The notes under the pieces are model-generated. The model worked only from the letters and a program-made list of their open reading frames with translations. It ran no database searches and was not told where the DNA came from. A program made the translations under genes and the position numbers. This document shows positions 2,625-8,060 of a DNA stretch of 36,451 nt, one piece after another. The stretch spans positions 1 to 36,451 of the forward strand of contig JALVJU010000285.1 of assembly GCA_027034005.1 (NCBI GenBank), written 5' to 3'. This stretch comes from Marinilabiliaceae bacterium. GTDB lineage: Bacteria; Bacteroidota; Bacteroidia; Bacteroidales; Marinilabiliaceae. Numbering within the stretch: position 1 is the first letter of the stretch; each line of letters starts with the position of its first letter.

Positions 2625-5600
2625 CTATTTAGGAACAGTAAACCAGAAGGTAGTGCCTTTACCTACTTCCGATTCCACCCAAATATTCCCGTCAAGAGCT
2701 TCAACTATATTTTTAGTGATAGTTAGCCCAAGGCCGTTGCCGCCATAAATTATATTTTTTGTTTTTTCTATTTTATAAAAACGATCAAAGATCCTGCTCA
2801 TTAACTCATCCCTAATACCTATTCCCGTATCACTCACATAGAACTGGATATAACCGTCTATCTCTTCACAACCAAGTGTAACACAGCCTTCACTAGTGAA
2901 CTTCAAAGCATTGTTCAACAAATTTGTTATCACCTGCCTTAACCGGTCCTCATCAGTATTCACGACCACCTCACTATCAGCCTTTAAAACGATTTCAAGT
3001 TTTACATGTTCCTTCTCCTTGTAAAGTTTTGAATTTTTAAACATGAAAAATATGTCCCTCACAAGATTACAAACCTTAACATCGGAAAAATGAAACTTCA
3101 ACTGTCCTGATTCTATCATGGAGATATCAATAATATCATTTAAGAGCTTAAGAAGTGCATCCCCATTCAATTTTACCATGCGAGCAAACATTTCCCGCTC
3201 TTTCTTATCAAAATCCTCTGCAAGTAATAACTCCGAGAATCCCAGTATCGCATTCATCGGTGTCCGTATCTCATGCGACATATTTGAAAGGAAAGCAGAT
3301 TTCAACCTGTCCGATTCCTCAGCCCTTATTTTTGCATCCTCAAGATCACGTGTGCGCTGCCTAACCTTATTTTCAAGTTCTGCGGCAAAATCCTGCAGTT
3401 CTTCTTTCTGGCGAGCTATTTCATCCCGCTGCCTGTTGGCAATATTGCGCTGCTGCTGTATCTCCTTGGTCCTTAACTGAACAATCTCTTCCAGTTTTTC
3501 TTTCTCATGCCTTATACTAAGTACCCTATGTCTGATAACAGCAGCAATAAGAAGCAATACACTTAAAATAATTAAACTATGTATCCGCCATTCCATCCAA
3601 AATGGAGGTGTAACATAGAGTTTTAGTCTTTTAATATTTTTATCACAAAGTATGCCATCCCCATTGGTAGCCTTCACCTCCAACGTATATTCCCCGGAAT
3701 TAAGATTTATAAATGTCATAAAATTCCTCTCCCCGAGAGATATCCATTTATCCGATACGGGAAGTATCCTGTAAAAATATGATATCCTTTGTGGATTGGT
3801 GTAATCGAGTGCGGCAAAACTAACAGTAACCATTTTTTCATCATAGCTCAGTGTTATTGAACTTGCCGCCACCATACTTCTTATAAATTCAGTTCTTTGG
3901 AATACCTCTTTGTTATCCGGCTTTACCTCTTCCCCGTACAGAGCCACAGACACAGGGTAAATAGGCGGACAAAAATCGCTTTTATGTACCTTATCGGGAT
4001 AAAAACCTACCACACCGGCAACACCACCAAACAATAAATACCCGTCATTCAGTTTTTCCGAAGGGCCAATATTGAACTCATCACTATAAAACCCGTCACT
4101 TGCCATATATTTTGCTTCAATAGCCAAGGTCTTTTTATCTATCGACACCAAACCTTTGTTTGTTGATACCCACATGTAGTCACCCGTATCCTGCACTTCG
4201 TTGGCAAATTCATCGAAAAATTTTCCATTTTCATCTTTCACAAAACCAATAATCTTGTCTTCATTGGGGTCATAAACATAAATACCACTCTCCGTGGCCG
4301 TCCATAACAAGCCCTCTTTACTCTCAGTTATAGAAGTAACAGTGTTGGCTAAAACATTATTACTGTTAAAACTTAGGTTACTAAAACGGATACAGCGAAA
4401 GTCATCTTTCTCGAAATTGTACTCATTAAGCCCATCACGGGTACCAAACCACAACCGCCCTTTGCTATCAGAAAATATCTGCATAACCCATGAATGGCTC
4501 AATGAATTATTTTTATTGATGTCGGCTTTGTAGTTTTTGAACTTCCCGGTACGCTCGTTAAGCCACCCTACCCCATGCGGAGTCGACACCCATAATCTTC
4601 CTTTTTTATCTCTTGTAATGCAAGCCACATCATTATTAACCAAGCTGTGAGTATCTTTGGCTTTCATGTGATAACTCCGGAAAGTACCATTCTTTCTGTC
4701 ATATTTCACCAGCCCTTTGTTTGTTCCTACCCAAACAACCTTGTTTTGATCAAAAAATATGGACCAAACAGAAAAATTCTTGGTCATATTACGATAAACC
4801 TTCAACTTAACCCGTCTAAAATCATTCTTTTGCGGGTTCCATATAGTTAACCCTTTAATCGACCCTATCCATACCTCACCGTTACTATCTTCCTTTATGG
4901 CAAAAACAGAGTTATCAGCTATACTCGGACGATCTGGCACATGGTATATCGATTTGAACGGTTTCCCTTCCAACATTACCTGCACTACCCCTTTAGAACG
5001 TGTTCCTAACCACAAACTCTGCATATTGTCCCTAAAAACAGTTACCACACGGTCTTCCGGCAGGGAACGAGGATCCTGAGGTTGGTTCTTAAAATGGCGT
5101 AACTGCTCATCCTTATTTATATAGTAAAGGCCGTCAAATCGTGAAGCGATCCATAAACCGCCTTTTTTATCAAGAGCCATTTTTTGTAACTCAACTCCAT
5201 GTATCTTGTATTCAAAAAACAACCCTGTTTGCGGATCGAAAAAATAAAGGCCGTACTTAGTAGAAACTACCAAAAGTCCATCTTTATATCCAATCACATC
5301 ATTTATATAATTTTTCTCCCATGTATTTATATTCCCTGCCTTATTATAAAAAGGAACAAACCTGTTTTCTTCGGCAATATATTCCATCAATCCCAAACCT
5401 TTTGTTCCTATCCAAAGATGCCCCCGGCCATCTATAAAAAAAGAACTTACCCCATCACACTTTGCATCCGGGTGTTTATTCAAAAAACCGGAAAAGTTCC
5501 TGAAAGTATTATTTTGGGGATTAAAGCAGGATATGCCAACATCTGAAGATATCCATACAGAAGTATCATTCACGTACTTAACACTGTAAACATAATTACT

Positions 5601-5996
5601 TATCAAAGAGTTTTTGTCACCTTCTACATGGTTGAAACTTTTGACCTTATCATAGTTAATATCATATATATATAGCCCCACACCGTAATTAGCAATAAAA
5701 AGGGCCCCTTTCCCATCTCCGTCAATACCTGTTATCTTACCTCTAATTGCATGGGTTTTGCCATCTTTCAAATACTTCAAAACCACAAATCCCCTGCCGT
5801 CAAAACGGTTTATACCATCATCTGTCCCAAACCACATAAATCCTTTTTCGTCCTGATAAATAGACTGCACGGTAGATTGTGACAATCCTTCCTTTATCGA
5901 AAACGATCTGAACTTATACTCTGAGACTTGGGAATAAGACCCGAGAGCAAAAATGATAGTCAGAAAAAATAATATATAAACCCTTTTAAAACTCAA
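2625..5996 (-). CDS. Beta-propeller (Reg_prop/Y_Y_Y) membrane sensor histidine kinase
   Basis: 1123 aa; repeated W(F/I)GT..GL propeller motifs, Y_Y_Y-like region, TM segment, coiled coil, H-box FLSNMSHEIRTPMNAILGFSELL, N-box NLLNNALKFT, G-boxes DTGIGI / GGNGLGLTI. Ends after the HATPase domain; no REC or AraC domain. Confidence 0.95.
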   Translation of the reverse strand: MSFKRVYILFFLTIIFALGSYSQVSEYKFRSFSIKEGLSQSTVQSIYQDEKGFMWFGTDDGINRFDGRGFVVLKYLKDGKTHAIRGKITGIDGDGKGALFIANYGVGLYIYDINYDKVKSFNHVEGDKNSLISNYVYSVKYVNDTSVWISSDVGISCFNPQNNTFRNFSGFLNKHPDAKCDGVSSFFIDGRGHLWIGTKGLGLMEYIAEENRFVPFYNKAGNINTWEKNYINDVIGYKDGLLVVSTKYGLYFFDPQTGLFFEYKIHGVELQKMALDKKGGLWIASRFDGLYYINKDEQLRHFKNQPQDPRSLPEDRVVTVFRDNMQSLWLGTRSKGVVQVMLEGKPFKSIYHVPDRPSIADNSVFAIKEDSNGEVWIGSIKGLTIWNPQKNDFRRVKLKVYRNMTKNFSVWSIFFDQNKVVWVGTNKGLVKYDRKNGTFRSYHMKAKDTHSLVNNDVACITRDKKGRLWVSTPHGVGWLNERTGKFKNYKADINKNNSLSHSWVMQIFSDSKGRLWFGTRDGLNEYNFEKDDFRCIRFSNLSFNSNNVLANTVTSITESKEGLLWTATESGIYVYDPNEDKIIGFVKDENGKFFDEFANEVQDTGDYMWVSTNKGLVSIDKKTLAIEAKYMASDGFYSDEFNIGPSEKLNDGYLLFGGVAGVVGFYPDKVHKSDFCPPIYPVSVALYGEEVKPDNKEVFQRTEFIRSMVAASSITLSYDEKMVTVSFAALDYTNPQRISYFYRILPVSDKWISLGERNFMTFINLNSGEYTLEVKATNGDGILCDKNIKRLKLYVTPPFWMEWRIHSLIILSVLLLIAAVIRHRVLSIRHEKEKLEEIVQLRTKEIQQQRNIANRQRDEIARQKEELQDFAAELENKVRQRTRDLEDAKIRAEESDRLKSAFLSNMSHEIRTPMNAILGFSELLLAEDFDKKEREMFARMVKLNGDALLKLLNDIIDISMIESGQLKFHFSDVKVCNLVRDIFFMFKNSKLYKEKEHVKLEIVLKADSEVVVNTDEDRLRQVITNLLNNALKFTSEGCVTLGCEEIDGYIQFYVSDTGIGIRDELMSRIFDRFYKIEKTKNIIYGGNGLGLTITKNIVEALDGNIWVESEVGKGTTFWFTVPK

Positions 5997-6361
5997 ATCA
6001 GAAAAAATTTTAGGTGCTAAAATAAAACATAAAAAATATAAAACCTATTAAAATAACATGTTACCTGTTTTAACTGTTCAAACTTAACAATTAGATAAAC
6101 ACAAAACCCATCTTTCTATTGATCCCGTGAACCAATGTATACAATATATTTCAAAAGCGATTTCACTTTTGCTGTCTAACCCAAAAAAATATTTTAAATT
6201 TAGGCTTAATTTTGTCCATTAAGTTAAAAGAGAGGCATATCACCGGAATCCTTTCCGCCATCAATGAGTAAAGATTAAAAGAAAATGTATTGGACAATAA
6301 GTTTAACAGGGAATATCATATCCCGGTATAAACTCATAGTTTGGTAAGGGCCTCATCCTGA

Positions 6362-6395
6362 CAAAAAAGGGAACAACCGTTGTTGCTCCCTTTTT
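6362..6395 (-). terminator. Intrinsic terminator of sRNA copy A
   Basis: GGGAGCAAC-AACG-GTTGTTCCC followed by TTTTTTG on the minus strand. Confidence 0.8.
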
Positions 6396-6430
6396 CAATT
6401 AACCAAACCCAAATCTATGAAAAAAATCTG
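6363..6430 (-). ncRNA. Putative sigma-54-dependent small RNA, copy A
   Basis: Minus strand: TTTTGGCACAGTACTTGCAATT promoter, then ~68 nt (CAGATTTTTTTCATAGATTTGGGTTTGGTTAATTGAAAAA + GGGAGCAAC-AACG-GTTGTTCCC + TTTTTTG). 30-nt core 29/30 identical to copy B; 9-bp stem with one G.U only on the minus strand. Confidence 0.72.
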
Positions 6431-6439
6431 TTAGTAAAA

Positions 6440-6459
6440 TTGCAAGTACTGTGCCAAAA
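6440..6459 (-). promoter_or_regulatory. Sigma-54 (-24/-12) promoter of sRNA copy A
   Basis: Minus strand TTTTGGCACAGTACTTGCAA; GG-N10-GC spacing exact. Confidence 0.75.
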
Positions 6460-6565
6460 CTATCCTCAAGCAATTATCATATTGTTAAACTATTTTGAAA
6501 AATCAAAAATCAGGAATAAAATCAAAAGAATTGCACACAAATAAAAATCATTTTTTTCATGTTAT

Positions 6566-6606
6566 AAAAAAACAGAAACGGGAACACTCCATTGAATGCT
6601 CCCGTT
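6566..6606 (-). terminator. Intrinsic terminator of sRNA copy B
   Basis: 15-bp stem GAAACGGGAGCATTC/GAGTGTTCCCGTTTC, AATG loop, followed by TGTTTTTTT on the minus strand. Confidence 0.8.
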
Positions 6607-6643
6607 TCACCTTAACCTAACCCAAATCTATGAAAAAAATCCA
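6566..6643 (-). ncRNA. Putative sigma-54-dependent small RNA, copy B (promoter-distal boundary set by intrinsic terminator)
   Basis: Minus strand: TTTGGCACGGTAGTTGCAATA promoter, then ~78 nt (TTGGATTTTTTTCATAGATTTGGGTTAGGTTAAGGT + GAAACGGGAGCATTC-AATG-GAGTGTTCCCGTTTC + TGTTTTTTT). 15-bp stem with two G.U pairs only on the minus strand. TSS estimated at -12 element + 12 nt. Confidence 0.72.
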
Positions 6644-6652
6644 AAAACAATA

Positions 6653-6671
6653 TTGCAACTACCGTGCCAAA
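6653..6671 (-). promoter_or_regulatory. Sigma-54 (-24/-12) promoter of sRNA copy B
   Basis: Minus strand TTTGGCACGGTAGTTGCAA; GG-N10-GC spacing exact against the TGGCACG-N4-TTGCW consensus. Confidence 0.75.
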
Positions 6672-6731
6672 CTTTTTAATCAACTTGTTACCAAGAGTTA
6701 AAACAAGCAAATAAATCCTTAATTCACAATA

Positions 6732-7073
6732 TCAATTGCAGAAAAAAGGAACATTTACCGATCCTATATTTTTCACATAGGCATAAGAAATGATATAATA
6801 CCGTGTATTGTATTTTTCAATTTTAACAGCTCCCATGTCCCATTTTTGCGCCCAAGCCTCTCCTGAGTAATTATCAGAGATAAACAATCCATTTAACAAA
6901 GTTGATGAACTGTGCACACAGTCATTCTTCCTTCTGCTGACCCGCTCCCTCATTTTACCGGGCAATTGCAAAGCGACAGAAAATGTGGCGAGCAAAGAAC
7001 CTTTTTGTGGATTTATCTTTCCCATATTATTTTTATGTTTTGTTCCGTCACCTTTAAACAAAAGCCGAACCAA
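6732..7073 (-). CDS. Hypothetical small protein (possible, uncertain)
   Basis: 113-aa ORF in the gap between sRNA copy B and the glycosyltransferase; no recognisable domain; could be spurious. Confidence 0.25.
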   Translation of the reverse strand: MVRLLFKGDGTKHKNNMGKINPQKGSLLATFSVALQLPGKMRERVSRRKNDCVHSSSTLLNGLFISDNYSGEAWAQKWDMGAVKIEKYNTRYYIISYAYVKNIGSVNVPFFCN

Positions 7074-7133: not shown

Positions 7134-8060
7134 TTAATTCCTGAAATATTTTTCAGCTTTTGTTCCTGCACATATCTCCAAAGCATGATGCAGCTTAAAA
7201 AGACTGAACAAGAAGAGCGAAGAAACACCATTTCTTAATGCATATTCAATAAATGGATTAAAGATATTCAATACACCTTTTACGGGTTCAACCAGTTTCA
7301 TTTTATATAACTTCCTAACCCAAATAAGCAGCTTTACATCATCTATGAAGTCAGGAGCACCATTAACGATATTAAGGATCGTGAACAAACTTTCTACGGC
7401 TTCTCTGCTTTTAGTCAAAAACTCTTCATTTGTATCAAGTTCTCTGTTGATAACATAATTATCTATGTGCAAAATTCCTGCTCCCGCTTTTTTCAGACGG
7501 TATCCCATAAGTGTATCCTCATGCCCGTAACCTGTAAGTGTTTCGTCAAACCTAACTTTATCAAACACTTTTAATGGGATCAGGACGTTTTTTGTAATAA
7601 AAGATCTATAAGTATCTTTATTCCTGATGCTGGCCGGACGGCTTTCTACTTTTCGGCCATATTCCCACCTCAGCATCTTACTCTTTTCCGGTTTAACACC
7701 CGAATAGGCACTTCCGCCAACCACCACTTTCCCTTCATTTAGTTTCAAAACATGAAAATAATCCCGAAGAAAATCCGAACTGTCAACTACAGAATCACTG
7801 TCAATAAATAACAAATATTGTCCGGAAGCATATTTTGCAAACAGGTTCCTTATGCGTGATCTCCCAATATTTTTATCAAGTTCAATGTAGTTATCAATAT
7901 ACTTTGAAAGTTCCCTGTTATGCAATCGATATTCTTCGCCTGATGCATCATCTATAACAAGTATCTCAACCTGATATTTTAATTTAACTTTTTGATAATG
8001 CAACGCTTTTACAAGATCATCTATATGGCTGTTAAACACAGGAACACAAACGCTAATCAT
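7134..8060 (-). CDS. Glycosyltransferase family 2
   Basis: MISVCVPVFNSHIDDLVKAL...EILVIDDASGEEY...NIGRSRIRNLFAKYASGQYLLFIDSDS: GT-A fold N-terminus with a DxD-like motif. Confidence 0.9.
   Translation of the reverse strand: MISVCVPVFNSHIDDLVKALHYQKVKLKYQVEILVIDDASGEEYRLHNRELSKYIDNYIELDKNIGRSRIRNLFAKYASGQYLLFIDSDSVVDSSDFLRDYFHVLKLNEGKVVVGGSAYSGVKPEKSKMLRWEYGRKVESRPASIRNKDTYRSFITKNVLIPLKVFDKVRFDETLTGYGHEDTLMGYRLKKAGAGILHIDNYVINRELDTNEEFLTKSREAVESLFTILNIVNGAPDFIDDVKLLIWVRKLYKMKLVEPVKGVLNIFNPFIEYALRNGVSSLFLFSLFKLHHALEICAGTKAEKYFRN

Follow-up and report, generated by a model that had tools for sequence, protein, structure and literature searches.

Tandem predicted small RNA genes with sigma-54 promoters and a FopS-like seed in a Marinilabiliaceae bacterium

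Two tandem units and their promoters

The window analysed here, a stretch of 36,451 nucleotides (nt) from a Marinilabiliaceae bacterium, carries on its minus strand a two-component-propeller histidine kinase gene (2625-5996) and a family-2 glycosyltransferase gene (7134-8060), and between these same-strand neighbours lie two units (6360-6700, minus strand) that read in equal order as a sigma-54 box, a core and an intrinsic terminator. A sequence-only reading had proposed that this locus holds duplicated minus-strand small RNA (sRNA) genes, each with a sigma-54 promoter and a terminator, and the proposal is supported, each part being found in its place in the sequence; the transcripts themselves are predicted. 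The measured repeat distance between the units is 213 bp, against an earlier estimate of about 212 bp. Neither a tRNA nor an Rfam family at gathering level was found in the window, and Rfam matches at E-value level (Plastid-psbA-3, STnc320, rliE and others) were dismissed, as they look like hairpin or low-complexity matches. A frame of 113 aa (6732-7073, minus strand), located between the sRNA pair and the glycosyltransferase gene, is without a Pfam match and is probably not a gene.

The promoter of unit 1, TGGCACGGTAGTTGCA (-24/-12; 6654-6669), is a perfect consensus whose position is conserved across relatives, and 17 nt upstream of its -24 element stands a direct repeat TAAC-N6-TAAC (TAACTCTTGGTAAC; 6687-6700), a candidate regulator site. 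Downstream follow the core or seed GATTTTTTTCATAGATTTGGGTTAGGTTAA (6612-6641), which contains the invariant columns of a 34-sequence alignment and is complementary to translation start regions, and the terminator hairpin GAAACGGGAGCATTC-AATG-GAGTGTTCCCGTTTC, then TGTTTTTTT (6575-6608), which is indicated by the fold and by compensatory changes and has a T-run to 6566. Judging from the -12 position and the terminator, the sRNA would be ~76-78 nt long (6566-6643), starting near 6641-6643 and ending near 6566. Unit 2 has an equally perfect promoter at a conserved position, TGGCACAGTACTTGCA (-24/-12; 6441-6456), with only a degenerate TAAC repeat upstream, followed by the core GATTTTTTTCATAGATTTGGGTTTGGTTAA (6399-6428), placed by sequence, by the alignment to Rfam RF04319 and by that of the relatives, and by the folded hairpin GGGAGCAAC-AACG-GTTGTTCCC (6369-6390) with its T-run at 6368-6363; the same two marks predict an sRNA of ~66-68 nt (6363-6430), starting near 6428-6430 and ending near 6363. 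All of these features lie on the minus strand.

Both promoters are perfect TGGCAC-N5-TTGCA boxes with the exact GG-N10-GC spacing that had been claimed, and direct reading confirmed that the two cores are 29/30 identical, one base apart. The shared GGGAGC..GTTCCC hairpin with T-run of the earlier description holds as a structure, but the letters differ (GAAACGGGAGCATTC.. vs GGGAGCAAC..). Both predicted transcripts fold far better than their shuffled counterparts (z -4.95 and -4.13).

Perfect TGGCAC-N5-TTGCA sites occur in the 36-kb window only at these two places. When two mismatches are allowed, 13 sites are observed and 11 expected, so near-matches alone are uninformative, and near-consensus sites were rejected as stand-alone evidence. 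Among 27 units gathered by the core alone, with the promoter left unused, 20 have a sigma-54 box of at least 9/11 consensus positions at the right distance (shuffled probability 4e-4 per unit). The sigma-54 units form class A, 48 of 78 distinct units, a count that includes loci fetched by the promoter pattern; in this class TGGCA and TTG are near 100%, the spacer is fixed at 5 nt and the predicted RNA start lies ~12 nt downstream of the box. Class B units (core ..GGATTTGGTTAACAA..) carry a sigma-ABfr-like TAnnTTTG box and are without a sigma-54 box. The TAAC-N6-TAAC repeat is common to both classes (30/48 in A, usually 16-17 nt upstream of TGGCAC; 14/15 in B; ~4-5% in shuffles), and its end lies mostly 50-53 nt before the TTTC of the core in each. 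It is thus found at equal distance from the RNA start in sigma-54- and sigma-ABfr-type units (window 6687-6700; L011-L070), an uncommon situation, as each of the two polymerases requires its own kind of activator. As a genome-wide regulon marker the repeat was discarded: intergenic sites were few across 1.6 Mb, and away from the sRNAs their spacing showed little preference.

Could the boxes be sites of another DNA-binding protein, with transcription from a sigma-ABfr or other promoter? Some family members are without a good sigma-54 box (the copy on contig C160 of the same genome matches at 7/11 positions, class B has none), class B and the FopS RNAs treated below have sigma-ABfr promoters, and in both classes the TAAC repeat stands equally far from the RNA start. 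Nevertheless, a spacer of exactly 5 nt and an RNA start 12 nt away are the geometry of sigma-54, a TAnnTTTG -7 box is not evident in the listed class A units, and a second bacterial family (f9) combines the same box with a CATAG core. We therefore judge this alternative very unlikely, and keep to sigma-54 promoters for the two units.

Conservation and distribution of the family

Across relatives the core is invariant over ~19 consecutive columns of the 34-sequence alignment, and the terminator stem covaries: in 39 distinct hairpins 92% of the cells are paired, compared with 52% in shuffles (maximum 57%), several standard pair types occur at every position, and 31 of the 39 family hairpins have an AACG loop. 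Covariance model R1, of which both sequences were part, finds unit 1 at 6573-6642 (72.8 bits) and unit 2 at 6361-6429 (81.6 bits), both on the minus strand. Box, core and stem complementarity are conserved and the spacers between the parts differ, as would follow from the selection on promoter, core and terminator that had been proposed.

Seen from the plus strand, the core resembles a typical start region (ATGAAAAAAATC), so that one might take it for the translation start of small peptides, or for a repetitive element. Frames from that ATG, however, mostly stop within 4-38 codons and yield no conserved peptide, the promoter and the hairpin with its T-run are oriented on the minus strand, and the stems vary with compensation while the spacers differ. 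Such an origin is hardly credible; plus-strand coding or a mini-peptide was rejected, the frames being short and unconserved, and neither strand offers a coding rival to a minus-strand sRNA pair.

The window's own genome, which is incomplete, contains four core copies and one copy of class B type; a search with the 28-nt core at up to 3 mismatches gives 4 matches and 0 reversed. The copy on contig C27 has a good sigma-54 box (10/11), that on C160 the degenerate one mentioned above, and the copy on C353 (L188 / L040) has a FopS-like core of class B type, apparently without a sigma-54 box, its promoter being unclassified. Homologous units were likewise found in related genomes, the core (up to 3 mismatches) being present in 47 of 60 sampled Marinilabiliaceae genomes with 0 reversed matches and with as many as 9 copies in one relative. 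A scan of named genomes for the sigma-54 box and core returned 26 stretches, nearly all from Carboxylicivirga, Saccharicrinis and other Marinilabiliaceae; Carboxylicivirga linearis and C. mesophila are among the bearers of sigma-54-class copies. One metagenome-assembled genome labelled Chlorobiota (JAADEM01; L068, L070) has sRNAs of Marinilabiliaceae type and resembles G010, of the window's genus; the label looks wrong.

When 394 Bacteroidales genomes were scanned for the sigma-54 box with TTTTCATAG, matches beyond this family came mainly from one further family, f9, where promoter and CATAG occur together in 31/60 genomes (26/42 good ones, 16/26 genera; reversed control 0), counts that cover promoter-bearing copies only, since the search required the sigma-54 promoter. 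In the f9 units read out, the core is close to TTTTTTCATAG(G/T)TTAAGTTTTAGGTTA and is followed by a hairpin and, in most, a T-run. Matches in G100 and G165, which seem to have arisen by chance in coding DNA, were set aside. The idea that the family is widespread in Bacteroidota thus holds for Bacteroidales only: the combination of sigma-54 promoter and CATAG was found in two families of that order and in 0 of ~380 sampled genomes from the other orders of the class. Diverged CATAG..GGTT cores followed by terminators were also seen in ~ten further Bacteroidales families (L205, L210, L211, L213, L217), which suggests, at the level of sequence, a larger superfamily of anti-start-codon sRNAs across the order.

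Two copies keep their neighbours across genomes, one a ~350-aa family starting MSEVKKTELGQLGEFGLI (L048, L049, L051, L059, L062, L064, L067), the other a 633-aa protein starting MSDQIKHECGIVLIRL (L046, L047, L061, L065, L069). An origin from phages or plasmids was rejected: four viral-contig matches are without promoter or terminator, and one plasmid match is weak. In several genomes tandem copies again lie 170-250 bp apart, as might be expected if they were duplicated leftovers of a mobile element or repeat that have no function. Against this speak the conserved box, core and stem complementarity beside unconserved spacers, the retention of neighbour genes by some copies across several genomes and the chance nature of the viral matches, and we give such remnants next to no credence beside functional sRNA genes.

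Relation to FopS and predicted pairing with translation starts

FopS (Rfam RF04319, BTncRNA_FopS) is a paralogous sRNA family, with GibS, of Bacteroides thetaiotaomicron that was described in 2025, its RNAs consisting of a 5′ seed and a terminator and being driven by sigma-ABfr promoters (PMC11697453). It has been shown by experiment that FopS pairs with the susC start region and represses translation, and its predicted targets are enriched for outer-membrane proteins (PMC11697453). The RRM protein RbpB binds FopS RNAs in their 5′ part and antagonises the repression, which is due to seed-specific base pairing (PMC11697453).

The RF04319 model aligns to unit 2 (6359-6427, minus strand) over the full length of the FopS consensus, with the seed aligned, at 23.8 bits against a gathering threshold of 56 (E = 0.18 over 4227 families). 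At E<=0.01 it has no match in the sigma-54-class genomes G000 (the window's own), G010, G041 and G049, while a class-B genome of the same family scores up to 38.6 bits and other Bacteroidales up to 82, with many copies; the higher scores of the class-B relatives appear to bridge the sigma-54 units to FopS. Like FopS, the predicted RNAs are ~70 nt long, with an unstructured, U-rich 5′ seed containing UUUUUCAU..GGUUAA and one terminator hairpin (one strong hairpin and weak 5′ structure in the fold), occur as many paralogous copies per genome, have a seed with predicted complementarity to susC translation starts and share their genome with an RRM (Rbp) protein, which scores above the NCBIfam Rbp_regulator cut-off. 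Unlike FopS, they fall below the Rfam cut-off and are not classed under RF04319, they carry sigma-54 boxes instead of the sigma-ABfr TAnnTTTG that the class-B relatives resemble, and they were found in Marinilabiliaceae and one further family.

The finding is real, and it has more support than the sequence-only reading could draw on. On the strength of the RF04319 alignment and the published features of FopS, the units look like a diverged, sigma-54-driven FopS branch, not an unknown family. The surmise of an unnamed family must accordingly be given up, core and layout being those of FopS, although the score is below cut-off and the sigma factor is another one. We found no prior description of a sigma-54-driven variant in the open-access literature searched, and the units are apparently an undescribed sigma-54-controlled branch of an sRNA group known from gut Bacteroides.

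Vibrio Qrr RNAs, with which the units had been compared, are ~110 nt long, have four stem-loops, work together with Hfq and have LuxO as their activator. Multicopy sRNA genes under sigma-54 promoters are common to both, as a functional analogy only; the units differ in having one main hairpin and other predicted targets, and scans of the window at the Rfam gathering threshold and at E<=10 gave no Qrr match. A sigma-54-driven sRNA pair, GlmY/GlmZ, is also present in Enterobacteriaceae, and RybB and MicA are sigma-E sRNAs that shut down outer-membrane protein synthesis; we know of no sequence relation of either pair to the units, and to our knowledge their chaperones are different. In comparison with RybB/MicA, it would here be sigma-54 that feeds the shut-off of outer-membrane proteins.

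The reverse complement of the core, TTAACCTAACCCAAATCT-ATG-AAAAAAATC, reads as untranslated leader, then start codon, then codons for Lys-Lys-Ile, with which exported proteins commonly begin here. In the own genome (418 genes, 11 SusC, from fetched stretches), predicted pairing averages -19.05 kcal/mol for SusC start regions and -12.69 for other genes (p = 1.5e-7), and dinucleotide-shuffled seeds reach -13.2 on the same SusC genes. In the complete relative G041 (1.6 Mb, 1137 genes, 20 SusC) the values are -16.4 and -12.5 (p = 5e-4), with shuffled seeds on average about equal for SusC and other genes. The AUG is predicted to pair with the seed's CAU in 27 of 31 SusC genes, compared with 61% of signal-peptide genes and 51% of others. 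A preference of the seed for SusC start regions is thus supported computationally in two genomes. In the own genome it comes from the UUUUUUUCAU/AUGAAAAAA (AUG-AAAAAA) part of the seed; the 3′ half alone is without SusC enrichment there and enriched only in G041. Other signal-peptide genes are also predicted to pair better with the seed than the remaining genes; this, together with the lack of preference of the 3′ half in the own genome, points to a possibly broad target set.

The invariance of the core admits another explanation, in which the sigma-54-driven sRNAs are real and the core mainly binds protein, as an RbpB-type sponge or decoy, its complementarity to start regions reflecting shared recognition by an RNA-binding protein. 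Across genera the core barely varies, beyond what loose pairing with divergent targets would need, an RRM regulator is encoded in the own genome, where the 3′ half of the seed is without SusC preference, and in FopS RNAs it is the 5′ part that RbpB binds (PMC11697453). Against this, the core contains the exact complement of ATG and Lys-Lys codons, SusC genes favour the AUG:CAU register, and FopS represses by seed-specific pairing that RbpB antagonises (PMC11697453). We hold a mainly protein-binding core to be unlikely, and take antisense pairing as the probable main function of the seed.

A proposed sigma-54 switch for envelope proteins

Since sigma-54 promoters, in place of the sigma-ABfr promoters of FopS, lead one to expect an obligatory ATP-dependent activator, RpoN and NtrC-type activators should be present in the genome, and both were found: the RpoN DNA-binding domain on contig C439, interrupted by the contig end, and four full PF00158 enhancer-binding proteins. 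One of these four, on contig C640 (L276 2216-5314), is a sigma-54 activator of 426 aa without a receiver domain and is followed by lptE, with secG two genes on; Flavobacterium psychrophilum is listed with a comparable activator-LptE pair (PMC9723704). The C640 activator is a candidate link between sigma-54 and envelope biogenesis.

We think it likely that the locus encodes two tandem antisense sRNAs of the FopS kind that are activated through sigma-54 and an NtrC-type protein and repress translation of SusC and other envelope proteins. An NtrC-type enhancer-binding protein would activate sigma-54 RNA polymerase so that both tandem copies are transcribed, with the RNA 5′ end expected at AGATTTTTT, ~12 nt past the -12 GC. 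Each RNA would present a largely single-stranded, U-rich 5′ seed and end in an intrinsic terminator. Because the seed carries the exact complement of a Bacteroidales start region (UUAACCUAACCCAAAUCU-AUG-AAAAAAAUC), its pairing with mRNAs that encode SusC/RagA-type TonB-dependent transporters, as well as other exported proteins, should span the AUG and so block initiation of translation, a repression that is probably modulated by an RbpB-type RRM protein.

More tentatively, and with considerable doubt, in at least two Bacteroidales families sigma-54 and a conserved enhancer-binding protein, for which the C640 gene adjoining lptE and near secG is the candidate, might form an envelope-homeostasis switch: under outer-membrane or export stress, multicopy FopS-like sRNAs sharing a single universal anti-start-codon seed would hold back the synthesis of SusC-type transporters and further exported proteins, making the switch a Bacteroidota counterpart of the sigma-E response with RybB and MicA.

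So far, reports of FopS concern an sRNA cluster of Bacteroidaceae that is controlled by the housekeeping sigma factor. If our reading is true, with anti-start-codon RNAs of this type under sigma-54 in other Bacteroidales families and copies of both the sigma-54 type and the class-B type in one genome, the FopS-type group would be much older, and its control would have shifted to a sigma factor that is gated by an activator. It would also give the phylum a concrete candidate sigma-54 regulon, sRNA control of glycan-transporter synthesis, and would bear on the role of sigma-54 in Bacteroidales and on how over-production of SusC is prevented.
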